Below, piece by piece: positions 1,561 to 12,020 of a stretch of DNA of 64,000 nucleotides. Position 1 is the stretch's first letter, and every line of letters starts with the position of its first letter. Made by a program: the position numbers and the translations under genes. The notes beneath the pieces are model-generated. The model worked only from the letters and a program-made list of their open reading frames with translations. It had not been told where the DNA came from and searched no databases. Source of the stretch: Pseudomonas sp. MM223. GTDB lineage: Bacteria > Pseudomonadota > Gammaproteobacteria > Pseudomonadales > Pseudomonadaceae. The stretch spans positions 2,463,501 to 2,527,500 of the forward strand of contig OX352322.1 in assembly GCA_947090765.1 (NCBI GenBank), given 5' to 3'.

Positions 1561-4500
1561 ATGCAAGACACGACACAACAGCCATCCAAGGGTGTCGACA
1601 CGCTCGCGGTTGCGCAAAAGTATCAGGACCAACTGATAGCAAAGCGTCTGCCTGGTTGGTTTGCGCGGCTGAGCAGTTACGAATTTGCGGTCATGCGCGA
1701 TGCGCTGCGCAAACAGTGGGTGAGTGATCGACAGCTCACGGCAGCGTTCGACTGGATCCAGAACATTGATGATTTTGCCAGGCCGTTGTTGCAGGAAGCG
1801 CTGGCCCGCCATGGCCATCACGATGTGGATGCACTGTACTTGCGTCGATGGTATGTCTTTGACGCGTATGAAGGCAGCTACTTCACAGGGCGTGTTCCGC
1901 TGCCAGACAGCGACTATTACGATGTGCCTTTGCTTGAGGCTGCGCTTGGCAACTTCACCGATGAAGAGCAGCGCGTGCAGCCACGGCGTAATGCGGTGGT
2001 CGATAGCGTGGGCAAGAAACAGGCGGGCTTGTCTGCGTTGGGCGTTGCCAGGTTTTGCCGTGAGCTGGACCTTGGCAAGCAGTATCAGGACCACCTGGAC
2101 CTTACCCTGCTCGCAGATACCGGTGAGCACAGTGTCACGGCGTCGATGGCGCAACTGCTGAGTAACAGCATGCTGGCCGATGCCGTGCTGGCCAAGGTGC
2201 AGGGCGTACTGACGGGGGCTGAGTTGCAGCTGGTGATTGGGCTTTGCCGCGACAACCAACTCGGCGATTTGCAGGGCGCCCCCGTCAGGGTCAGGCAACT
2301 GGAGATGTTCGGTTGCGTGCTGCACCGGGTCGTCGTGCTGGACGTTATTGATACCGGTGTGATCTACAACGCCACCCGGCGGGTGCTGGTGTATGTCCCA
2401 GGCGACCCGGACGGCGCCTGGAGTGCTTGTGACAACCTGGAGGAATACGCGCGCCATGTGCTTGGCATGCGGCTGCGCAAGGGCGTGTACAAACGCTTTT
2501 TCAGCCGTTTCGTGCGCCGGCGTGACAGCCACAGCTTTTTCACGGCTGTAAGCGAGCGCCTCGATGATGTAGCGGCATGGGCGACCCGCGACCTTGATGA
2601 AAAGACGCTGGCCAGCCCGGTGTCATTGTTCCACTACCAGGCGGCCAAGTGGGTCGAGCAGATCAAGGACGATGCCGCCATGATCGCACCCCCCGTGGCG
2701 CAGCTGGACCGCCAGGTGCAGGCCGAGCACGACAAGCGCCTGCGTGCTGAGGGCTGGACGCTGCTTGCCTTGGCCGGGCTGTTTGTACCGGCGGTTGGGG
2801 CCTTGCTGACTGCCGTGCTTGTCTACGACCTGCTCCAAGAGGCCTACCAGGCAATCGCCGATTGGCACGATGATGAGCGTGATGCTGCCTTTGAGCATGT
2901 GTTGCATGTTGGCAAGCAGTTAGGGGTGGCTGCTGCTGCCGGTGCCACGGTGGCATTGGCTCATCGTGCCTGGAGCAATGTGGATGACCTGATTTCGGCG
3001 CGGCTGGAAAACGGCGAAGAAAAGCTGTGGAACGGTGACCTGGAGCCTTATCGCAGCGAGGGCCCGCCGAATGCAGCAGCCATGGACGACGAAGGTATCG
3101 TCCGTCACGGCGGCAACAGCTGGGTCAACATGCAGGGGCATTGGTACCGGATTACCCGAAGTAATGCCGACGAGCCATGGCGGTTGTTGCCTTATCAGGG
3201 CCATAGCCCGGAGTTGCGCCACAACGGGGCAGGGGCTTGGCGCTTGTGGTTCGAGCAGCCGGCCGAATGGGACGACCGGCCTATGCTGTTTCGCCGGCTT
3301 GGCAGGCCTTACAGTGAACTCGCAGAGCACTTGATCGACCAAGTGATGGCAATTCACGGATTGACCGATGACCACCTGCGGGCGTTGCACGTGTATGCCC
3401 GGCCTGCAGAAGCGGGCCTGGCCGACACGGTAAGCCGCGTGGTGTTGGCGGACCGCATCCGTTTGCTTACCCACCAGCTGGCCGGCCGTGCGCAGGTATC
3501 CGACACTGCGCTGTTGGCACATGCCAGGCAGTTGGAGGGTGCGGTGGGGATGGATGGCCAGGCACTGGCTGAGGTGGTGTGGGGCCAGCGACGCAGGTTG
3601 TTGCAGCACGCTTACGAGGTGCAGTTTCCTGACAGTGAGGGCAGTGCACTGTTGCGCAGGCATTTCACCAGCCTGCACAGGCTGGCGGCAGACCAACTGC
3701 TGCGCATGGCCAGTGAAGAGGACCGCGAGGCATTGTTGCAGACGCAACGGGTACCGTTGTTCATGGCTCAGTCGGCGCGGTCACAGGTTATGGGCATTCG
3801 CGTGGCGCGGGTGAGTGAGGCACTGTTGTTCGATACGCCGCAAAATCTTGACCTTGCGCGGGTGGTCCTTCACTTGTTGGCGCGTTTGCCAGGTGCTTCG
3901 GCCTTACCTGGCTGGAGGCTGTTCGATGGCGACGCCGGTGAGCCATTGCTCACCACAACCGGGGTCGGTGCACCCGTCGAGCTGGTTCATCGTGATGGCC
4001 TGTTCAGCCTGCGCGCAGCAGAGGGGGCGGTGCAGCCAGGTACCGGCGAGTTGTTTGACACCATAACCCAGGGTTTCTCGGCCGACAGCAGGGCTGCACT
4101 TGGCTTAGAGGAGCCTTTCGCACCTGCATTGCGTGCACATCTGGCCGAAGATGCCACCCGCCAGCGTGGCAGCATGCAGGCCTGGCTTGGCCTTGACGGG
4201 CCAAGCAATTCGTTTTTGGCGCCGCTGAGGCTCGACGACGGCAGGGTTGGCTACCCCCTGAGCGGTGGCAGGTTCTGGGCCACATTGGGGGGGCGTGGCC
4301 CGAGGGCGTTGCAGGCGAGGTTGCGGGACCTGTATCCGGCATTCAGCACCCAGCAGATCGGGCGTTGGCTTGAGGGGGATAACGCGCAGGCAAACCTGGA
4401 GATGCTGGAGCAGCAATACACTACACTCAATAGCCACCTGAACCAGTGGGTGCGCGGTGGGCTTTCCACGTTTGAATTGTTTGCGCGCCGGGCGTTTCGC

Positions 4501-6003
4501 AGGGGCCTGATCGACTGTTGGCGCTGGCTGGTGCCGGAGATGGAAGACGGCATGTTACCCGCGCGGCGCTATATTCTAAGCCAGACCCGCAGCCGCTTGC
4601 AGAACCTGCCAAGCATCCCCGCGGCGGTGAGTTTTCCTCATATTTCCATGCTGGCGATACGTGCCATGCGCATGGAGACGGTGCCTGAGAACTTCCTGGC
4701 TGCGTTTCCCAATCTGCGTAGCCTGGAAATGACCAACTGCCGGCTCAGGCGCCTGCCACTGTCCAGCGCACTTGCCGGGCAACTGGAGGTGCTCGACTTG
4801 TCGGGTAACCAGATTGCACTGGATGAAGAACAAGCGTTGGGCTTGGCCAGTTGTCAGTCGCTGGTGTACCTCAATCTTTCCTCCAACCCGCTGGGAACCA
4901 GCTTCTCGGTGTCTGGCATGCCCCGCCTCAATGCCCTTCACCTGAACAACGCTCAACTCGCCAGCTGCCCGTACGGCATCCTGGACTGCCAAGACCTGCA
5001 CACGCTCGATCTCAGGGATAACGGTATCAGCGAACTACCTGCTGATTTCTATGGCTCTGACCTGTGGCGCGACGGCCGGGTCAACCTGCATGGCAATTTA
5101 TTGGCAGCGCCGTCCGACGCATTAGGAACCTGGCACTTGCTGGAGCAAAGCCAGGTACCGTACCACTTGCGCTGGCTGGACGTGGTGCCTGCCAGCAGGC
5201 GTGACGACATGGCGGCACTGTGGACTCAACTGGAAGCGGAACAGGGCGCAGGTGATTTTTTTTCCACCATGGCCCAGCTGACAACATCGGGCAATTTCAA
5301 GTCGCCCTCCCAGGCCAGGAACTTCGCTGTTCGCCTTCTGGACATGTTCGAGTACATGTGGAAGGACGATGCACTCAAACGTGAGTTGTTCGAGAACGCG
5401 TTGGTGACCGATTGCCAGGACAACGCCACCGTGCGTTTCAGCGACCTGGAGCTGCGTGTCATGGTCTGGCGTGCATTGCACAGCGAGCTTGTACGTAGCC
5501 CCGAGCGTGCGCTGCTGCACCTGGGCGGGCAGCTTTGGCGAATGGAGACGCTTGACCAGTTGGCTGCCGAACATGCGCTGGTGGCAGGGGCAAGTCGGGA
5601 GTCGATCGAATTCGCCCTGGCGTATCGTATTGCGTTGCGCAGTCAGTTGGACTTGCCTATCCAGCAGGATGACATGTTGTATTACCGGATAGCCAATCTC
5701 AGCTGGCGCGATCTGCACAGGGCAAAAAGTGCCGTCATCGCTGCCCAGTCACCGGGCGGCCTTGCTCAGTTCATGGCCAGGCAAACATTCTGGCAGGATT
5801 ACCTGAAAGCCAATTTCCGCGCTCGCCTGCGCGTACCGGATGCCTATCACGAGCAGTTGGAGTGGCTGATGGAGCAAGGCAACCGCGAGCACGACATCGC
5901 GTTATTGCATATCGACAACCAACAACGTGAACACGAAGTGCTGTTGCAATTAACGCGCGAGGCCATGGGCAGGGCGGGGGTTACACCGCACAACATGCCC
6001 TGA
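1561..6003 (+). CDS. LRR protein with C-terminal NEL-type E3 ubiquitin ligase domain
   Basis: This is a 1480-residue protein. Residues about 15-390 resemble the DUF6543/dermonecrotic-toxin-like N-terminal region of large Pseudomonas proteins (recognised from memory). A hydrophobic stretch lies near residues 398-425. Leucine-rich repeats occupy about 1045-1165 (LEVLDLSGNQI, LVYLNLSSNPL, LHTLDLRDNGI). The last 290 residues look like the NEL domain of IpaH/SspH ligases: DCQDNATVRFSDL at about 1284-1296 lines up with the IpaH CED active-site region, making Cys1285 the expected catalytic residue. NEL enzymes modify eukaryotic host proteins. No secretion signal or secretion genes are seen nearby. 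The start ATG is preceded by a weak GGGG. Confidence 0.8.
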   Translation: MQDTTQQPSKGVDTLAVAQKYQDQLIAKRLPGWFARLSSYEFAVMRDALRKQWVSDRQLTAAFDWIQNIDDFARPLLQEALARHGHHDVDALYLRRWYVFDAYEGSYFTGRVPLPDSDYYDVPLLEAALGNFTDEEQRVQPRRNAVVDSVGKKQAGLSALGVARFCRELDLGKQYQDHLDLTLLADTGEHSVTASMAQLLSNSMLADAVLAKVQGVLTGAELQLVIGLCRDNQLGDLQGAPVRVRQLEMFGCVLHRVVVLDVIDTGVIYNATRRVLVYVPGDPDGAWSACDNLEEYARHVLGMRLRKGVYKRFFSRFVRRRDSHSFFTAVSERLDDVAAWATRDLDEKTLASPVSLFHYQAAKWVEQIKDDAAMIAPPVAQLDRQVQAEHDKRLRAEGWTLLALAGLFVPAVGALLTAVLVYDLLQEAYQAIADWHDDERDAAFEHVLHVGKQLGVAAAAGATVALAHRAWSNVDDLISARLENGEEKLWNGDLEPYRSEGPPNAAAMDDEGIVRHGGNSWVNMQGHWYRITRSNADEPWRLLPYQGHSPELRHNGAGAWRLWFEQPAEWDDRPMLFRRLGRPYSELAEHLIDQVMAIHGLTDDHLRALHVYARPAEAGLADTVSRVVLADRIRLLTHQLAGRAQVSDTALLAHARQLEGAVGMDGQALAEVVWGQRRRLLQHAYEVQFPDSEGSALLRRHFTSLHRLAADQLLRMASEEDREALLQTQRVPLFMAQSARSQVMGIRVARVSEALLFDTPQNLDLARVVLHLLARLPGASALPGWRLFDGDAGEPLLTTTGVGAPVELVHRDGLFSLRAAEGAVQPGTGELFDTITQGFSADSRAALGLEEPFAPALRAHLAEDATRQRGSMQAWLGLDGPSNSFLAPLRLDDGRVGYPLSGGRFWATLGGRGPRALQARLRDLYPAFSTQQIGRWLEGDNAQANLEMLEQQYTTLNSHLNQWVRGGLSTFELFARRAFRRGLIDCWRWLVPEMEDGMLPARRYILSQTRSRLQNLPSIPAAVSFPHISMLAIRAMRMETVPENFLAAFPNLRSLEMTNCRLRRLPLSSALAGQLEVLDLSGNQIALDEEQALGLASCQSLVYLNLSSNPLGTSFSVSGMPRLNALHLNNAQLASCPYGILDCQDLHTLDLRDNGISELPADFYGSDLWRDGRVNLHGNLLAAPSDALGTWHLLEQSQVPYHLRWLDVVPASRRDDMAALWTQLEAEQGAGDFFSTMAQLTTSGNFKSPSQARNFAVRLLDMFEYMWKDDALKRELFENALVTDCQDNATVRFSDLELRVMVWRALHSELVRSPERALLHLGGQLWRMETLDQLAAEHALVAGASRESIEFALAYRIALRSQLDLPIQQDDMLYYRIANLSWRDLHRAKSAVIAAQSPGGLAQFMARQTFWQDYLKANFRARLRVPDAYHEQLEWLMEQGNREHDIALLHIDNQQREHEVLLQLTREAMGRAGVTPHNMP

Positions 6004-6189: not shown

Positions 6190-6750
6190 ATGCTCGTCCG
6201 GTCACTGACCCTCGCTACCTTGCTCGCTGTCGCCGGCCCGCTGCTGGCAGCTGACAGTGACGCACCGCTGGCCAAGGAAGTGGGCAAGGCCAGGCCCTTG
6301 GTGGTCATCGCGCCCAGTAGCGCCGACCCGACCTTGCGCGGATTGAACAAGGCCCTCGAGGACCCTGCCACCCAGGCGGCCTTCAAGGAGCGCAACCTGG
6401 TGCTGTACAGCGTTGCCAACATGATGGGCAAGCGCGAAGACAAGAACCTTGAACAGCAGACCACCATGGCCCTGATCCGCGAACTGAAACTGGGCGCGAG
6501 CAAGGGCACCAAGGTGATCCTGGTGGGCAAGGACGGCGAGCGGCACATGCTCAAGGATGACGACAGTGGCGAGGCCATTGACCCGCAGGTAATCCTCAAG
6601 GCGGTGGATGAACTGCCTGCCAGCGAAAAGGCCGTGGCTGCGCCCGAGCCGGTGGCAGCGGCAGCGGACACCAAGGCCAAGGACAGTAAAGCCGCCAAGC
6701 CCGCCAAGCCAGCCAAACCTGCGGCGCCACCAAAGCCGCTGGAAGACTGA
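6190..6750 (+). CDS. Small secreted DUF4174-like protein
   Basis: A 186-residue protein. The start chosen is the ATG at 6190 because a TAAGGAG ribosome binding site lies 6 bases upstream; an upstream in-frame start at 6160 has none. It has a signal peptide (LATLLAVAGPLLA, cut before ADSD), then a thioredoxin-like core resembling DUF4174 (PLVVIAPSSADPTLRGL, KVILVGKDGERHML), and a low-complexity Ala/Lys/Pro tail with PAKPAKPAK repeats. No CXXC is present, so it is not an obvious thiol oxidoreductase. Function is unknown. Confidence 0.75.
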   Translation: MLVRSLTLATLLAVAGPLLAADSDAPLAKEVGKARPLVVIAPSSADPTLRGLNKALEDPATQAAFKERNLVLYSVANMMGKREDKNLEQQTTMALIRELKLGASKGTKVILVGKDGERHMLKDDDSGEAIDPQVILKAVDELPASEKAVAAPEPVAAAADTKAKDSKAAKPAKPAKPAAPPKPLED

Positions 6751-6788: not shown

Positions 6789-6792
6789 GCTG

Positions 6793-6808
6793 TGTATCCC
6801 TTTGTATC
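6793..6808 (+). promoter_or_regulatory. Candidate response-regulator site upstream of hvfA
   Basis: TGTATCCCTTTGTATC is a direct repeat of TGTA with a 10-base period, typical of OmpR-family binding sites. Similar pairs lie at 9692, 11818 and 12562, near hvfX, the response regulator and a DUF2790 gene. The function is inferred from repetition and position only. Confidence 0.4.
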
Positions 6809-6918
6809 TGACCGCGCCGCAGACCCACTCACTTACAAAACCGCCGCCCACGCGATACAACCCCGACATAGCGCAAAGGCCTAATGGCTCCACTTTCCAA
6901 CCACAGTGGAGCTACATC

Positions 6919-7410
6919 ATGACTCAAGTACGAAGCACCCTCGGCCTGCTTGGCGCCGCCCTGATCGGCAGCATGGCATTGGGCAGCAGTGCATTCGCGG
7001 TCGAACCGTTGGCCCAGGGTTATCAACTGGCCTCAGCCAAGGTGGCAGGTGAAGGCAAGTGCGGTGAAGGCAAATGTGGCGGCAGCGGCAAGGCCACTCA
7101 AAGCGAAGGCAAATGCGGCGAGGGTAAATGTGGTGCCAGCGCCAAGGCCGGGGCAGAGGGCAAGTGCGGCGAAGGCAAGTGCGGCGACGCCTCGTTCGGC
7201 AAAACCGACAGTAACCACGATGGCAAGGTTTCACGCGAAGAGTTCCTGGCGGTGGCCAAGGACCGTGCCGGTGACTTCGACAAGATCGACAGTAATCAGG
7301 ATGGCTTCATTTCCGAACAGGAAGCCGCGGACCACCTGAAGGCGATCTACCAGGCCAATGGCAAGGCCATGCCCGAAGGGCTGTTCAGCCACCTGACCGG
7401 CAAGCCCTGA
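6919..7410 (+). CDS. hvfA: HvfA-like RiPP precursor fused to an EF-hand pair
   Basis: A 163-residue exported protein. Its signal peptide is residues 1-27 (ends GSSAFA). A linker then carries three EGKCGEGKCG blocks with cysteines 48, 53, 66, 71, 83 and 88. Two EF-hand loops follow: DSNHDGKVSREE (97-108) and DSNQDGFISEQE (124-135). In the Haemophilus HvfA family, EGKCG cysteines are converted by the MNIO enzyme HvfB with HvfC into oxazolone/thioamide groups that bind copper(I). The same enzymes follow directly here, so this is most likely a copper-binding RiPP precursor. The EF-hand tail suggests additional calcium or metal sensing, which is inference. The ATG has a GTGGAG about 7 bases upstream. 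Confidence 0.85.
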   Translation: MTQVRSTLGLLGAALIGSMALGSSAFAVEPLAQGYQLASAKVAGEGKCGEGKCGGSGKATQSEGKCGEGKCGASAKAGAEGKCGEGKCGDASFGKTDSNHDGKVSREEFLAVAKDRAGDFDKIDSNQDGFISEQEAADHLKAIYQANGKAMPEGLFSHLTGKP

Positions 7411-7430
7411 CCGCTTACCCCTTGGCTCGA

Positions 7431-7467
7431 CACAACGCCCTTCCTGCTGGTCAGGCGGGGCGTTGTG
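7431..7467 (+). terminator. Attenuator-like hairpin between hvfA and hvfB
   Basis: CACAACGCCC (7431-7440) and GGGCGTTGTG (7458-7467) form a perfect 10-bp stem with a 17-base loop and no U-tract. It sits between the precursor stop and the hvfB ribosome binding site at 7474. It could protect the hvfA mRNA end or lower enzyme expression relative to precursor. Confidence 0.55.
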
Positions 7468-7485
7468 CCTGTTGGAGACCTGTTC

Positions 7486-8318
7486 ATGCTTCCTGCACGA
7501 TTGAATACCGGGCTTGGCCTGCGCCGTGGACTGCTGCCGGAACTGCTGGCCATGGGCACTGGCGCAGTGGACTTTCTTGAATGCGCGCCGGAAAACTGGA
7601 TTGCCGTGGGCGGTGCCTACGGCAGGGGCCTGGCCCAGTTGGCCGAGCGTTTCCCCATCACTTGCCACGGGCTGTCGTTGTCGCTGGGGGGCAGCGCGCC
7701 ACTGGACCGGCATTTTCTCGACCAGACCCGCCAGTTTCTCGACCGCCACCAAGTGCGGCTGTACAGTGAGCACCTGAGCTACTGCAGTGACGACGGGCAC
7801 CTGTACGACCTGATGCCCATCCCCTTTACCGATGAAGCCGTGCGCCATGTGGCTGCGCGCATTCGCCAGGTGCAAGAACACCTGGAACGGCGCATTGCCG
7901 TGGAAAACATCAGCTATTACGCCGCGCCGTACCAGGCGATGAGCGAGCTTGATTTCATCATGGCCGTACTCGATGAGGCGGACTGCGAGCTGCTGCTGGA
8001 CGTGAACAACGTATTCGTCAATGCCTGCAACCACGGTTACGACGCCGGGGCTTTTCTGGCAGGGTTGCCCCCGGCGAGGGTTACCGGCATGCACGTGGCC
8101 GGTCATTACGATGAAGCGCCGGACCTCAAGGTCGACACCCATGGGGCGCCGGTCAGGGACGATGTGTGGGCGTTGTACGCGGTCGCCTGCGCACGTTTCG
8201 GCGTGCAACCGACGGTGCTGGAACGTGATTTCAACTACCCGCCACTGGCCGGCTGTTGGCTGAGGCCGCGCGTATCCGCGCGGTACAGGGCCTTGCGGGA
8301 GGGTTGGCAGATGAATGA
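7486..8318 (+). CDS. hvfB: HvfB, MNIO (DUF692) RiPP-modifying enzyme; 1-nt frameshift near 8254
   Basis: HvfB belongs to the multinuclear non-heme iron oxidases (DUF692), which rebuild cysteine side chains of precursor peptides. Visible family motifs are [63 protein letters not shown] and HVAGHYD, including the His, Asp and Glu residues expected to bind iron. The start is ATG 7486, with GGAGA 7 bases upstream. As read, the frame runs without a stop into HvfC. Adding one C at 8253/8254 restores the usual ending [18 protein letters not shown] and a TGA at 8316-8318, giving 277 residues. That stop overlaps the hvfC start by 8 bases. The missing base is probably a sequencing error, otherwise a recent mutation. 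Confidence 0.85.
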
Positions 8319-9009
8319 GACCCTGCGTGAACAGCAATACACCCTGGCCCGCTACCTGCGCGACCCACAGCACAATGCCCCGCCGCCCGGCGTGGAGGCT
8401 CGGCGCCTGAAGGTTTACCGTGAATTGTTCTATGGCGCCATCGAGGGGCTGCTGGCCGGGAGTTTTCCGGTGATGCGCCAGGCCTTGGGCGAGCAGCGAT
8501 GGCATGCCCGCGTACGTGATTTCTATGCCAGCTACCGCAGCCAGACCCCCTTGTTTACCCAAGTTGCCGAAGCGTTCGTCGATTATCTGCAAGGCGCCGA
8601 GTTGGATGCGCCTTGGCAATTGGAGCTGGCGCACTATGAGTGGATAGAGTCGCAATTATACCTGAGCGATGCCGAGGAGCCGGCCCATGACCCCGCGGGT
8701 GATTTGTTGGAGGGGGTACCGCTGCTGTCCTGCGTGGCACGGGTGCTGGCTTATCACTGGCCGGTGGAGCGCATTGGGGCGGGTTTTCAGCCGACGGTTG
8801 TGCCAGAAGCCCCCACGTTGCTGCTGGTGTATCGCGATGCCGCGCTGAAGGTACGCTTTGCGCGGTTGGCGCCGCTGGCGTATCGGTTGCTGGCGTTGGA
8901 AAAGGGTAGCGGGCGGGCGCGGCTGGAGGCGTTAGGCGCGGATTTGCAGCAGGGGCTGGCGTTGCTGGAAGGGCTGCGCGAACAAGGCGTCATTGTCGGG
9001 ACAATTTGA
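8311..9009 (+). CDS. hvfC: HvfC, DUF2063 partner protein of the MNIO enzyme
   Basis: A 232-residue protein. Its own start is ATG 8311 ([19 protein letters not shown]), with GGGAGGG 7 bases upstream, inside the 3' end of hvfB. The N-terminal half is the DUF2063 domain ([40 protein letters not shown]). The C-terminal half is an alpha/beta region like the precursor-recognition domain of HvfC/BufC. In the family HvfC presents the precursor to HvfB. Its frame is the one into which the hvfB frameshift runs, giving an apparent 514-residue fusion that should not be taken at face value. Confidence 0.8.
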
Positions 9010-9026
9010 GGGCAATGGCGGCGCGT

Positions 9027-9120
9027 TGCGCCCCATTCGCGGCACAAGGCCGCTCCAACAGGGGGTTGCGTTCCCTGTTGGAGCGGCCTTGTGCCGCAAT
9101 GGGCTGCAAAGCAGCCCCGG
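9027..9120. repeat. Inverted pair of REP elements (BIME)
   Basis: GCGGCACAAGGCCGCTCC and its reverse complement face each other around a short GGGGGTTGCGTTCCC spacer. The element lies between the convergent hvfC and hvfX and probably acts as a bidirectional terminator. Confidence 0.8.
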
Positions 9121-9125
9121 CGATA

Positions 9126-9609
9126 TCACCTGCTGAACCGCATCCTCAGCCAATGATCCACGCTCAAGCGCCCAGCCCCTTCAAGCAGCAGTGGCAACAA
9201 TGCCACAAGGTAGATCAACGGTAATTTGAAGTTACCAAAGCCCTGGTCGGTAATGACATAGCCCTGCGCCAGCTCAGCCAGGCTCGACCAGTGGGCTGGC
9301 CAATGCACCGCAGCAATTGCCACCACAGTCACCACCATCAGGCCCAATGACGCCAGCCGGGTGCCCAGGCCCAGCACAAGCAGCAACGGCAGCACCAGCT
9401 CCGCCCACATCGACAGCTGCCAGTTCGAGCTCGGCAGGCAGCAGGTTGAAGGGGAACGGGAAGCTGCCTTGCAGGTCGGCGAACCAATTGTTGCCATTGA
9501 ACTTCTCCAGGCCGGATTCAAAAAACTCCCAAGCCAGGAACAGCCGTAACGGCAGGTCGGCGCTCCAGTTGCCGACGCGGTCGAAAGTAGTGAGGGTAAA
9601 GGCTTTCAT
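9126..9609 (-). CDS. hvfX: HvfX, DoxX-family membrane protein; 1-nt frameshift near 9430
   Basis: A DoxX-like inner-membrane protein with four hydrophobic helices ([67 protein letters not shown]). DoxX proteins accompany hvfA-type RiPP operons. The first 60 codons are in one frame and the rest in another. Removing one base in the GAGCTCGAAC context (about 9426-9432) joins NLLPAEL to [10 protein letters not shown] and gives a 160-residue protein of normal length. The start is ATG 9609 with GGGAG 8 bases upstream. It is likely a sequencing indel, since the same fault recurs in other genes of the window. Confidence 0.75.
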
Positions 9610-9691
9610 CAAGGTGGCTCCCGGGCCTGATTGTGTGACCGGGAGTGTGTGGCGGCGGGGTGTCTGCAGTGTGTCGGTGGTGCTGGGGTTG

Positions 9692-9721: not shown

Positions 9722-11008
9722 TCAGCTGAGTTCGATCCGCGCGCACAGCCCGCCGCTGTCGCGGTTGCTCAGGGTCAGCCGCCCCCCCATGGCCTGGATC
9801 AGCTGGTGGGCAATGGCCAGCCCCAGCCCGGTACCGCCAGTGCTGCGATTGCGTGAACCTTCCACTCGGTAGAACGGCTTGAGCACTTCGTCGAGCTCGT
9901 CGCCTGGAATACCGGGCCCGTTGTCGAGCACACGGATCACGGTCATATCGCCCTCGCGGCACACTTCCAGTTCGGCAGCGCCGGCAAACTTGAGGGCGTT
10001 GTCCACAAGGTTGACCAGCACGCGGCGCAGGGCATGCGGGCGGGTTTCCAGCAGGCTGCCGGTGCTGCCATGGCGCTGTACCTGGGCGCCGCTGTCCTGG
10101 TAGTCGAACACCAGGCTGTCGAGGAAGGCATCGAGGTTGACCCTGCACGGGGCCTCAGTGCTGGTATCCATGCTGCGGGCGTACGCGACGCCTTCGCGCA
10201 CCAGGTGCTCCATTTCGCCCAGGTCGCTCCACAGCTTGTCCTTCTCGACCCCTTCGTCCATCACCTCGACACGCAGCTTCATGCGTGTGATCGGCGTTTG
10301 CAGGTCGTGAGAAATGGCCGCCAGCAACTGCATGCGTTCTTTCAGGTGGGCGGTAATGCGCGCCTGCAATGCGTTGAAGGCCACTGCGGCGTAGCGCACC
10401 TCGCGCGGGCCGCTTTCATCCAGCTGTACGCCGGGCTTGTCCGGGTCGAGGTTGTCCACCGCGCGGGCCAGGCGGGTGAGAGGGCCTATGGCCAGGTGCA
10501 CTGCCAACCACGTGCACAGCAACAGGACGGCCAGCTGTATCAGCAATACCATGGGCAACCAGCGGGCCACCGGGACCGGCGACGGGGTGACGTCGATGGT
10601 CAGCGGTGCGCCGTCAGCCAGCCTCAGGTGTGCCTGGAAGTGAGCATTCGGGCCGGGGATGTCCTGAAAGGTCAGGCGGTAGTCGCTGCCGATGGCCTTG
10701 ACGATCGACTCGGCGGCCATGGGCGGGTCGCTGCTGGGCATTGCCTCGCCGGCCAGGCCGTGGTCGAGGCGGTAGCGGTAGGTACGCCGCTCCAGGCGCG
10801 GCAGCCAGGCGGCACGCTCGGCCGCAGGCAGGCGGTCAAGGATGGCCACCGAAGTGGCCACGTCTTGCTCCAGGTTGCTGAGCATCATCGAGCGGCTGCT
10901 GATGTAGCGCTCGTAGGCCTGCAGGCCAAACGACAAACCGTAGGCCAACACCAGGCCGGTGAAGAAGATCAGCGCCAGGCGTGAGGCGAGGGTGCGTGGC
11001 CACTTCAT
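9722..11008 (-). CDS. Two-component sensor histidine kinase
   Basis: A 428-residue inner-membrane kinase. TM1 spans residues about 10-30 and TM2 about 151-175, with a periplasmic sensor of about 120 residues between. A HAMP segment (IGPLTRLARAVDNL) follows, then the HisKA H-box SHDLQTPITRMKLR with phosphorylatable His234. The HATPase has N-box NLVDNALKFA, G1 DNGPGIPGDEL and G2 GGTGLGLAI. It overlaps the response regulator by 4 bases (ATGA), so they form one operon. The stimulus is unknown. The position beside hvfX and the shared TGTA repeats suggest it controls the hvf genes, perhaps in response to copper or oxidative stress; this is inference. Confidence 0.9.
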   Translation of the reverse strand: MKWPRTLASRLALIFFTGLVLAYGLSFGLQAYERYISSRSMMLSNLEQDVATSVAILDRLPAAERAAWLPRLERRTYRYRLDHGLAGEAMPSSDPPMAAESIVKAIGSDYRLTFQDIPGPNAHFQAHLRLADGAPLTIDVTPSPVPVARWLPMVLLIQLAVLLLCTWLAVHLAIGPLTRLARAVDNLDPDKPGVQLDESGPREVRYAAVAFNALQARITAHLKERMQLLAAISHDLQTPITRMKLRVEVMDEGVEKDKLWSDLGEMEHLVREGVAYARSMDTSTEAPCRVNLDAFLDSLVFDYQDSGAQVQRHGSTGSLLETRPHALRRVLVNLVDNALKFAGAAELEVCREGDMTVIRVLDNGPGIPGDELDEVLKPFYRVEGSRNRSTGGTGLGLAIAHQLIQAMGGRLTLSNRDSGGLCARIELS

Positions 11009-11745
11009 GACGGCGACTCAAGCAGTTGCACCGGCAGCGAAAATACATAGCCCTCGCTGCGCACGGTCTTGATGCAGCTGGGCTCGCGGGCGTCGTCGCC
11101 CAGGCGCTGGCGCAGGCGGCTGACCAGCAGGTCGATGGAGCGGTCGAACAGGTCGGCTTCGCGGCCCTGGGTCAGGTTGAGCAGCTGTTCGCGGCTTAGC
11201 ACCCGCTGCGGGTGGTCGAGAAACACGCGCAACAGGCGGTACTCGGCGCCACTCAGGGCTACCAGCGTGCCTTCGTTGTCGAGCAAGTGGCGCGCGGTGG
11301 TGTCCAGCCGCCATTGGCCGAAGCGCAGCAGGCGGCTGCTCTCGCTGATGGTGAGGTTGGGCGGCAGCATGCGCGTGCGGCGCAGCACGGCATTGATGCG
11401 GGCGAGCAGTTCGCGGGCCGAGAACGGCTTGGTCAGGTAATCGTCGGCGCCCATTTCCAGGCCGATGATGCGGTCGGTTTCATCGTTGCGGGCCGTCAGC
11501 ATCAACACGGGCGTGTTGCGGTGCTTGCCGGCGCGCAGTTCGCGGCACAGCAGCAGGCCATCGTCGCCGGGCATCATGATGTCGAGGACGATCAGGTCGA
11601 CGCTGTTGGCTTCGAGGAAGGCACGCATCTGCCGGCCGTCGGCGACGATGCTGGTGCGCAAACCGTTCTTCTTCAGGTAGTTGCCGACCAGTTCGCGGAT
11701 CTCGCGGTCGTCGTCGACGATCAGGATGTGATCGACGTGTTCCAT
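11005..11745 (-). CDS. OmpR-family response regulator
   Basis: A 246-residue regulator with a receiver domain (acidic pocket DDD at 11-13, phospho-acceptor Asp55 in LDIMMP, Lys in LTKPF) and a C-terminal winged helix (RVLSREQLLNLTQGREADLFDRS, VSRLRQRLG, SEGYVF). It is the first gene of the pair with the kinase at 9722-11008. OmpR-type regulators bind direct repeats with a 10-11 base period, which is the form of the TGTA pairs around this gene. It is not confidently assignable to a named system such as CzcR. Confidence 0.9.
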   Translation of the reverse strand: MEHVDHILIVDDDREIRELVGNYLKKNGLRTSIVADGRQMRAFLEANSVDLIVLDIMMPGDDGLLLCRELRAGKHRNTPVLMLTARNDETDRIIGLEMGADDYLTKPFSARELLARINAVLRRTRMLPPNLTISESSRLLRFGQWRLDTTARHLLDNEGTLVALSGAEYRLLRVFLDHPQRVLSREQLLNLTQGREADLFDRSIDLLVSRLRQRLGDDAREPSCIKTVRSEGYVFSLPVQLLESPS

Positions 11746-12020
11746 GCGCAGCGTTCCTGTTCAAGTGGGGTTGGCGCAGTGTACCCGGCGCGTTCGCGCT
11801 TGCCTGCTGGGGTTTGTATTGCAGTGTATCCGGCAGGGTACCGAGCTGTGCATCGGGCTGCTTGAAGCGGCTTGGGCCAAGGCAGCGCAATGCGGAGGCG
11901 TTGACCGCCTGGCCGATAAAAGCCGGGTTCTTTGTAGGGTTCAGGGCCTGATTGCAATACAAAGCGTACAATGACGCCTCGGGTAACTGTATTTCAGTGG
12001 CTCATTACCGAGTAGCCTGC
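11746..12020. promoter_or_regulatory. Upstream region of the two-component operon with TGTA direct repeat
   Basis: This intergenic stretch contains TGTATTGCAGTGTATCC at 11818-11834, again two TGTA units 10 bases apart, about 73 bases upstream of the response regulator start. It is a candidate autoregulatory site. Nothing else recognisable is seen. Confidence 0.3.

Follow-up and report, generated by a model that had tools for sequence, protein, structure and literature searches.

The locus described here lies in a 64,000-nucleotide stretch of the genome of Pseudomonas sp. MM223 (contig OX352322.1, positions 2,463,501 to 2,527,500; this whole stretch is referred to as the window, and all positions are given in its coordinates). 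It is centred on a gene for a precursor protein in which EGKCG repeats are joined to a pair of EF-hands, and it brings together three literatures, on calcium sensing by EfhP, on the copper peptides made by MNIO enzymes and on the BfmRS two-component system. The gene for EfhP (PA4107) of P. aeruginosa was grouped in 2014 with DUF692 and DUF2063 genes; the group is extended by a DUF4174 gene in strains of P. putida, and a homolog without a DUF692 neighbour was noted in P. fluorescens Pf0-1 (PMC4053335). Two papers of 2021 cite this calcium paper where they discuss DUF692 clusters (PMC8719888, PMC8692599), and a map of PA4101-PA4107 places bfmRS, a ferric-reductase-like gene and the genes for DoxX, DUF2063, DUF692 and EfhP together (PMC4918941). 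The Ca2+ affinity of EfhP corresponds to a dissociation constant of 13.7 uM; its selectivity for Ca2+ has been reported, Ca2+ alters its hydrophobicity, and a Ca2+ response depends on it (PMC9132961). For the affinity measurement, EfhP lacking the signal peptide was produced in E. coli; the plasmid is described as having efhP as its one gene (PMC9132961), and the protein was for this reason probably unmodified. From the four EGKCG repeats of EfhP, a dual sensing of calcium and iron has been proposed (PMC11559002).

In HvfA, fontiphorin and gonophorin, which belong to the captophorins (thiooxazole metallophores), the cysteines of EGKCG motifs are known to be oxidised by HvfB-type enzymes to copper-binding 5-thiooxazoles. 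The first-pass annotation of the window still gave the earlier oxazolone/thioamide chemistry for HvfA-type peptides, which has since been reassigned (PMC12668002, PMC13419390). The signal peptide of HvfA acts like a leader (PMC13419390). Chimaeras of EGKCG repeats with EF-hand_5 domains have been described as a class by Antoine et al. in 2025, with a citation of EfhP (PMC12452194); the same paper links EfhP to MNIO enzymes in one sentence, and is the sole paper we found to name both. The fusion, which the first-pass annotation did not know to be described, had thus appeared in print, and its calcium binding had been measured for EfhP. With respect to regulation, the PA4107 promoter is bound by the P. 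aeruginosa regulator BfmR, for which the box GATACAnnGC is given (PMC4148453), efhP is the gene most strongly activated by BfmR (PMC8025907), and control by BfmR of the efhP, DUF692, DUF2063 and DoxX genes is likewise in print (PMC4148453, PMC8025907, PMC4918941).

Against this background, we consider it probable that the locus in the window is the P. putida-type version of the efhP-PA4106-PA4105 cluster with its DoxX and bfmRS genes, and that EfhP-type proteins are captophorin precursors with a built-in Ca2+ module. The architecture that had been read from the letters of the precursor gene, with three EGKCGEGKCG blocks, six cysteines and two EF loops, is borne out by profile matches. The N terminus is hydrophobic and signal-like when judged by eye, a PLAQGYQLA segment lies between it and the cysteine blocks, and the last cysteine stands nine residues ahead of the first EF loop. 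The NCBIfam profile KCGExKCG_twice (NF050137) matches in 3 stretches with 65.9 bits (cut-off 19.5), and Pfam reports EF-hand_1 at 36.1 bits (cut-off 25.4), EF-hand_5 at 35.6 (25.9) and EF-hand_7 at 31.2 (30), with EF-hand_6 also above its cut-off. By its profile matches, the protein is not HvfA proper, and we place it among the chimaeras within the broader EGKCG family. A search with the precursor gave 5,246 matches at E <= 1e-3 among 7,997 scored proteins, and EF-hand Pfam domains are present in 119 of the 120 proteins listed; on these counts, the architecture is far beyond chance. The window protein is real and well conserved. A match of residues 84-142, the EF-hand part, to the type III effector XopAW reached 34 bits in NCBIfam against a cut-off of 120, and this identity was rejected.

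The two structure models that were predicted have low overall confidence, with a mean predicted local distance difference test (pLDDT) score of 54.7 and 55.1. In the model of the window precursor, block means range from 66 to 83 over residues 91-150 and from 31 to 47 over the cysteine arm, and the low values of the arm agree with its description as disordered by Antoine et al. The EF pair appears in the models as a separate domain, the first helix of which (residues 90-96 of the window precursor) begins immediately past the Cys-Gly of the last motif. A fold search of the PDB with the precursor model gave no match at E <= 0.001; the best matches were EF-hand proteins, from E 0.022 upwards.

The P. 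aeruginosa proteins P0099 and P0100 have the published features of EfhP/PA4107, EF loops from residues 88 and 115 and four EGKCG motifs (PMC4053335, PMC9132961, PMC11559002). The window protein has 104 residues identical to P0100 over 168 alignment columns, and we class it as an EfhP ortholog of the P. putida type. It is thus a member of a described kind, of which the calcium half and the gene cluster have been studied in P. aeruginosa. The MNIO enzyme HvfB and its partner HvfC, said earlier to adjoin the precursor, do so with profile scores above their cut-offs (Table 1). The DoxX gene hvfX is also at the locus, as had been claimed, but on the minus strand and split over two frames; the kinase and regulator genes lie beyond it on the same strand. 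In a P. aeruginosa-like genome (G610, locus L252, with an efhP that is 95% identical), the order is efhP, MNIO and HvfC, with HvfX, a 209-amino-acid frame without a Pfam match at 1e-5, the kinase and the regulator on the opposite strand, in agreement with the published PA4101-PA4107 map (PMC4918941). We infer from position that this kinase/regulator pair is PA4101-PA4102. Because an HvfA-like precursor at an MNIO/HvfBC locus carries an EF-hand pair, a two-metal protein is a plausible reading of the window precursor.

Table 1. Coordinates of the features of the precursor locus and its surroundings in the window
Feature	Position	Strand	Score or basis
DUF4174 gene (PF13778), upstream of precursor	6190-6750	+	Pfam 69.8 bits, cut-off 27
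Putative BfmR-type box GATACAnnGC (6789-6798) within direct repeat GATACA-N4-GATACA (cores 6793-6798 and 6803-6808)	6789-6808	-	
Third GATACA core	6854-6859	+	
Precursor, EfhP/HvfA-type EGKCG/EF-hand chimaera, 163 amino acids	6919-7410	+	open frame and profile matches
LxQGYxLA motif, residues 31-38, right behind signal-like segment	7009-7032	+	
EGKCGEGKCG block 1, Cys 48 and 53	7051-7080	+	
EGKCGEGKCG block 2, Cys 66 and 71	7105-7134	+	
EGKCGEGKCG block 3, Cys 83 and 88	7156-7185	+	
EF-hand loop 1, residues 97-108	7207-7242	+	
EF-hand loop 2, residues 124-135	7288-7323	+	
hvfB, MNIO (PF05114)	7486-8310	+	401.6 bits, cut-off 360
hvfC, DUF2063 and NGO1945_C, RRE-type partner	8311-9009	+	248.1 bits, cut-off 142
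Repeated palindromic element between convergent hvfC and hvfX	9017-9122		
hvfX (DoxX), in two frames (9277-9612 and 9126-9521)	9126-9612	-	
Sensor kinase in BfmS position	9722-11008	-	70.6% identical to kinase beside efhP in L252
Response regulator (OmpR-type) in BfmR position	11005-11745	-	91.4% identical to L252 counterpart
Second GATACAnnGC box, upstream of response regulator gene	11821-11830	-	

The relatives of the precursor fall into three architectures: a tail type, in which the EF pair follows the EGKCG arm; a sandwich type with the order EGKCG-EF-EF-EGKCG; and a plain type without the EF motif, which includes a few precursors with degenerate or broken EF loops (L079, L094, L174). The coordinating positions of the loops are strongly conserved. 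Among 160 distinct tail-type sequences, a set chosen by an Asp nine residues past a Cys so that position 1 of the first loop is fixed by selection, all 160 have D, N or S at position 3, 159 have D at position 5 and 158 have E at position 12, and variation is seen at positions 2, 4, 7 and 11. The second loop, in the 141 sequences with 27-residue spacing (where its Asp at position 1 is also fixed by selection), has D at position 5 in 140 and E at position 12 in all 141. The start-to-start distance of the two loops is mostly 27 or 25, and the number of cysteine motifs varies from 2 to 7 while the EF pair is retained. Cysteines outside the motif occur in 5 of the 119 proteins that have at least two motifs; 2 further proteins have a single motif. 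When the strict motif is applied to 99 distinct EF-bearing precursors, the last motif Cys precedes the first loop Asp by exactly nine residues in 75; the others comprise 17 sandwich forms, 6 that match the second loop only, the first being degenerate, and 1 with a spacing of 6. We did not find this nine-residue spacing in the available literature on EGKCG/EfhP-type proteins. The positions of the LxQGYxLA motif are invariant or nearly so in alignment A2, and 90 of 91 precursors, all 55 chimaeras among them, have a loose LxxGYxL-like motif ahead of the first Cys.

The sandwich form occurs in Pseudoxanthomonas, Luteimonas, Lysobacter, some Pseudomonas and the families f66 and f156, and was not found in the available text, figures aside, of the literature on these proteins. 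Sandwich precursors of Pseudomonas with an adjoining MNIO gene were seen at L011, L080, L082, L085, L163 and L164. In the best 80 of 336 confirmed loci, a set biased toward the query, 81 precursors were counted after one 2-motif minus-strand frame of L034 was dropped: 15 sandwich, 47 tail and 19 plain, of which 15, 21 and 15, respectively, lie beside an MNIO gene (the lack of one can also mean a contig end). A class-wide sample of 274 genomes, 117 of them with a match, yielded 30 classified loci: 4 sandwich, 25 plain and a single tail locus, the window itself. A tree of HvfB was built with 109 rows by a quick method, with support from the Shimodaira-Hasegawa-like approximate likelihood ratio test only, and has several long branches. 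On it, 11 changes account for the three architectures, whereas the mean after shuffling is 46.0. The Pseudomonas sandwich loci stand in one starred group, where they are joined by the plain short-precursor loci L167 and L173, and starred branches force at least 2 changes for the sandwich, 3 for the tail and 4 for the plain architecture. The idea that the EF-hand was added once is not supported by this tree, which forces several changes per architecture and on which gain and loss are indistinguishable.

In some Pseudomonas genomes, precursors lie apart from hvfBC, with GATACA cores common to both. The genus sample consisted of 199 genomes, 81 of which had a match, with the loci L004, L005, L011, L019 and L199-L201 added, and gave 91 precursors; the linkage of 6 precursors overall could not be assigned. 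The 51 tail precursors in it include 26 with an MNIO gene within 3.5 kb, 20 with none over at least 5 kb on both sides, and 5 unassigned; those linked to MNIO have 4-7 motifs and those unlinked 2-5. All 4 sandwich precursors are MNIO-linked. Among the 36 plain precursors, 18 are linked, 17 unlinked and 1 unassigned; the 17 unlinked ones all have two motifs, and 16 of them lie just ahead of hvfX on the same strand, the other being the degenerate chimaera at L174. At L165, L166, L169-L171, L176, L177 and L179-L187, the precursor is very short, has a single EGKCGEGKCG pair and is encoded directly ahead of hvfX on its strand; GATACA cores are present in the promoters, and there is no MNIO gene in the vicinity. 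Conversely, six genomes have an hvfB-hvfC pair without an EGKCG precursor in the region examined (L202-L207), and 1-4 GATACA cores are present within 500 bases of these pairs. Since the LxxGYxL-like motif precedes the first Cys so generally, the unlinked precursors may be substrates in trans, and from the scattered loci with common cores it would be expected that several precursors are served in trans by a single MNIO pair. Separated precursor and hvfBC loci with common GATACA cores were not found in the available literature on EfhP, MNIO enzymes or BfmRS.

The promoter of the window precursor has one full box, two cores set 10 bases apart as a direct repeat, and a third core. The repeat GATACA-N4-GATACA occurs once in the 6.73-Mb genome, in this promoter, and the reversed control pattern does not occur in that genome. 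Eight other chosen genomes have 14 such sites, distributed over 7 of the 8. Judged by position, the 15 sites known from all nine genomes divide into 11 ahead of a gene for a precursor, HvfB or a regulator, 2 ahead of a gene of the acetamidase family that adjoins hvfBC, and 2 elsewhere. The acetamidase/formamidase-family genes, which stand between the repeat and hvfBC (L203:4478-5791 and L204:4487-5818), are possible members of the regulon, as are two genes with signal-like N-termini near repeats away from hvf loci in genome G002 (L264:1643-2698 and L266:1614-3014). In genome G005, an apparent second BfmR-type regulator, judged by its first 40 residues, has a GATACA repeat of its own upstream (L265:694-1431). 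With identical upstream stretches removed, the window excluded, and with the proviso that the combined sets may hold one species twice, at least one GATACA lies within 200 bases upstream of the start in 84 of 91 tail and 7 of 20 sandwich precursors, in 20 of 23 plain precursors with 2-3 motifs and in 5 of 54 with at least 4, on a background of 0.04-0.15 per 200 bases. The same regulator (at least 75% identical) is present in 25 of 145 loci searched, and 20 of these 25 have a core upstream of the regulator gene. Among the papers listed in a literature search, BfmR was not found together with MNIO or DUF692 as written; BfmR and DoxX do appear together in the paper that describes the efhP cluster (PMC4918941). 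The 91% identity of the window regulator to the one beside efhP, the single occurrence of the GATACA repeat and the cores ahead of tail-type precursors were not found in the available literature.

According to the mechanism that we propose, a BfmRS-type two-component system would switch the operon on, as the boxes, the synteny and the published P. aeruginosa data suggest. Free Ca2+ is low in the cytoplasm, so that an unfolded EF pair is to be expected there; HvfC, which is thought to recognise the N-terminal segment of the precursor, and HvfB would act in this compartment, and the six EGKCG cysteines would be oxidised by HvfB to 5-thiooxazoles as in the captophorins. Modification would precede export, presumably by the Sec route. 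At the higher Ca2+ of the periplasm, the pair would bind Ca2+, as is known for EfhP, and fold, and the disordered, modified arm might bind Cu(I). Because the first EF helix begins right at what would be the last modified cysteine, Ca2+ loading should hold the end of the copper arm in place. A calcium gating of the copper site is a speculative extension of this scheme. In its widest form, which we put forward tentatively and regard as possible but on the whole unlikely, EfhP-type proteins would be Ca2+-gated copper captophorins, in which EF folding arranges flanking (sandwich) or abutting (tail) thiooxazole blocks into a copper site so that both metals are buffered or reported, and one HvfBC pair would mature several unlinked precursors as a GATACA-linked regulon of the BfmRS type. 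If this were true, the unlinked substrates of one HvfBC would be of two sorts, orphan EF chimaeras and short peptides linked to HvfX; BfmRS, which is known as a switch for biofilm and virulence, would at heart be a captophorin regulator, and the published biochemistry of EfhP would have been carried out on an immature, unmodified form.

Several observations weigh against the identification of EfhP-type proteins as captophorin precursors under BfmRS control. The modification of the window protein and its binding of copper and calcium are argued by analogy with its relatives. Its score for the NCBIfam HvfA equivalog NF050188 (54.7 bits) is below the cut-off of 95, and the metal proposed for the EGKCG part in the available text of PMC11559002 is iron, not copper. 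The box GATACAnnGC occurs 4 times in the window against 1.46 expected, and at least 4 boxes arose in 7 of 100 shuffles, so that the short box is weak evidence alone. The P. aeruginosa-like genome G610, one of the eight compared with that of the window, is without the N4 repeat, has its efhP cores 11 apart, and is the sole one of the nine genomes with a match to the control pattern. Four plain, EF-less relatives stand within the same HvfB clade, from which it follows that the EF pair is dispensable for the pathway. Finally, hvfB and hvfX are broken in the assembly, and the window strain may not make the mature product.

The dispensability of the EF pair also bears on an alternative that is readily conceivable, if short of probable: the pair might be only a Ca2+-dependent module for folding and retention, unfolded for HvfBC and Sec and folded in the periplasm, with independent calcium and copper sites. 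Its appearance as a separate predicted domain, its absence from the four plain relatives and its retention while the cysteine motifs vary from 2 to 7 are all as this alternative would have it, whereas the nine-residue spacing between the last Cys and the first loop (75 of 99) and the two-sided cysteine blocks of the sandwich form hint at a geometric link between the sites. An unlikely alternative is that EfhP-type proteins are primarily sensors for signalling by Ca2+ (and Fe or Cu), in which the EGKCG arm is a second sensing element and not a metal buffer. The change in EfhP hydrophobicity with Ca2+ and the need for EfhP in the Ca2+ response (PMC9132961) fit such a role, as does the dual Ca/Fe sensing proposed from the repeats (PMC11559002), but both the genes for maturation and the relatives that have been characterised speak for copper-binding thiooxazoles, and the locus shows no signalling partner apart from the two-component system, its presumed regulator.

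We regard it as quite unlikely that the locus is decaying in the window strain, with true frameshifts and no mature product, or that it encodes a fused HvfB-HvfC with an altered junction. Compared with locus L056, one-base length differences occur near 8252 and 9427, which we read as uncompensated; the remaining odd-length gaps are, on our reading, compensated close by or non-coding. The break near 8250 alters the last ~20 residues of HvfB, and by this slip of the frame close to its 3' end, hvfB continues into hvfC as one open frame; the difference near 9427 splits hvfX. In all 13 displayed loci with both matches, hvfB and hvfC are in different frames, and an engineered HvfB-HvfC fusion without a linker is reported to be active (PMC13419390). 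A natural fusion in the window was rejected, since the junction residues correspond to an out-of-frame reading and two frames are kept in those 13 relatives; nor does the window show a complete HvfB C-terminus followed by a linker and HvfC. True HvfB-linker-HvfC proteins, which are natural counterparts of the engineered fusion in PMC13419390, were seen elsewhere (P0148, P0156, P0158, P0161, P0164 and P0171); among 120 listed matches, 9 proteins have both domains, and we read these 6 of them as such fusions. Against decay stands the comparison with a second relative, G078, in which 4 of 40 comparable frames span two window frames, near 8250 (by way of an antisense frame) and at ~25914, ~35130 and ~38606, so that 3 of the 4 are elsewhere in the window, with the proviso that the later sites could include N-terminal differences. 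All 11 comparable frames of a third relative fall in a single window frame. The window assembly may hold several indels, and the scatter of the breaks speaks more for an error in sequencing or assembly than for a decay confined to the hvf operon.

A role of the EF loops for a different ion in the cell, for instance a lanthanide or Mn2+, is very improbable: the close-set pair (mostly 27 or 25 from start to start) resembles lanmodulin and gives weak matches to it in NCBIfam (17.2 bits) and the PDB (26.6 bits), but the NCBIfam LanM cut-off of 135 is far from reached, for which reason this identity was rejected, and EfhP is reported to be selective for Ca2+ (PMC9132961).

Around the locus, a 1,480-amino-acid open frame with leucine-rich-repeat-like stretches (by eye) lies just upstream at 1561-6003, and the palindromic element between hvfC and hvfX has several further copies elsewhere in the genome. 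The genome also has a second MNIO locus (L033:2461-4828; C1:3776460-3778827) with a small Cys-bearing, BufA1-like precursor and HvfC-like, DoxX-like and sigma-factor-like genes, again as judged by eye.

The scattered layout of loci with common cores, the sandwich form and the possible link between calcium and copper on one protein are, in our view, what makes this group of proteins noteworthy. In the available literature, we found neither an interpretation of the BfmRS targets as a captophorin pathway nor a measurement of both metals on one matured protein.

In comparison with known systems, the window precursor resembles the chimaeras of PMC12452194 in that a short EGKCG domain is followed by two EF-hands and MNIO genes are associated with it; the available text of that paper places EF-hands at the C terminus only, and the sandwich form and the shared GATACA cores were not found there. 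It shares with HvfA/oxazolin, fontiphorin and gonophorin the EGKCG pairs and enzymes of the HvfB and HvfC type; the term EF-hand is absent from the available text of the captophorin papers (PMC12668002, PMC13419390), and hvfX in the window is on the opposite strand. Like the BfmRS regulon, the locus has by its sequence a GATACAnnGC box ahead of the precursor and regulator genes and a putatively orthologous kinase and regulator beside the operon. From the EfhP system, the window differs in having six EGKCG motifs where EfhP has four, in the DUF4174 gene upstream, which matches the report on P. putida efhP homologs (PMC4053335), and in the frame breaks of hvfB and hvfX in the assembly. The two are otherwise alike in architecture, with EF loops 27 apart behind an EGKCG arm, in the downstream genes, and in the presence of the DUF692, DUF2063 and DoxX genes together with a putatively orthologous kinase and regulator.

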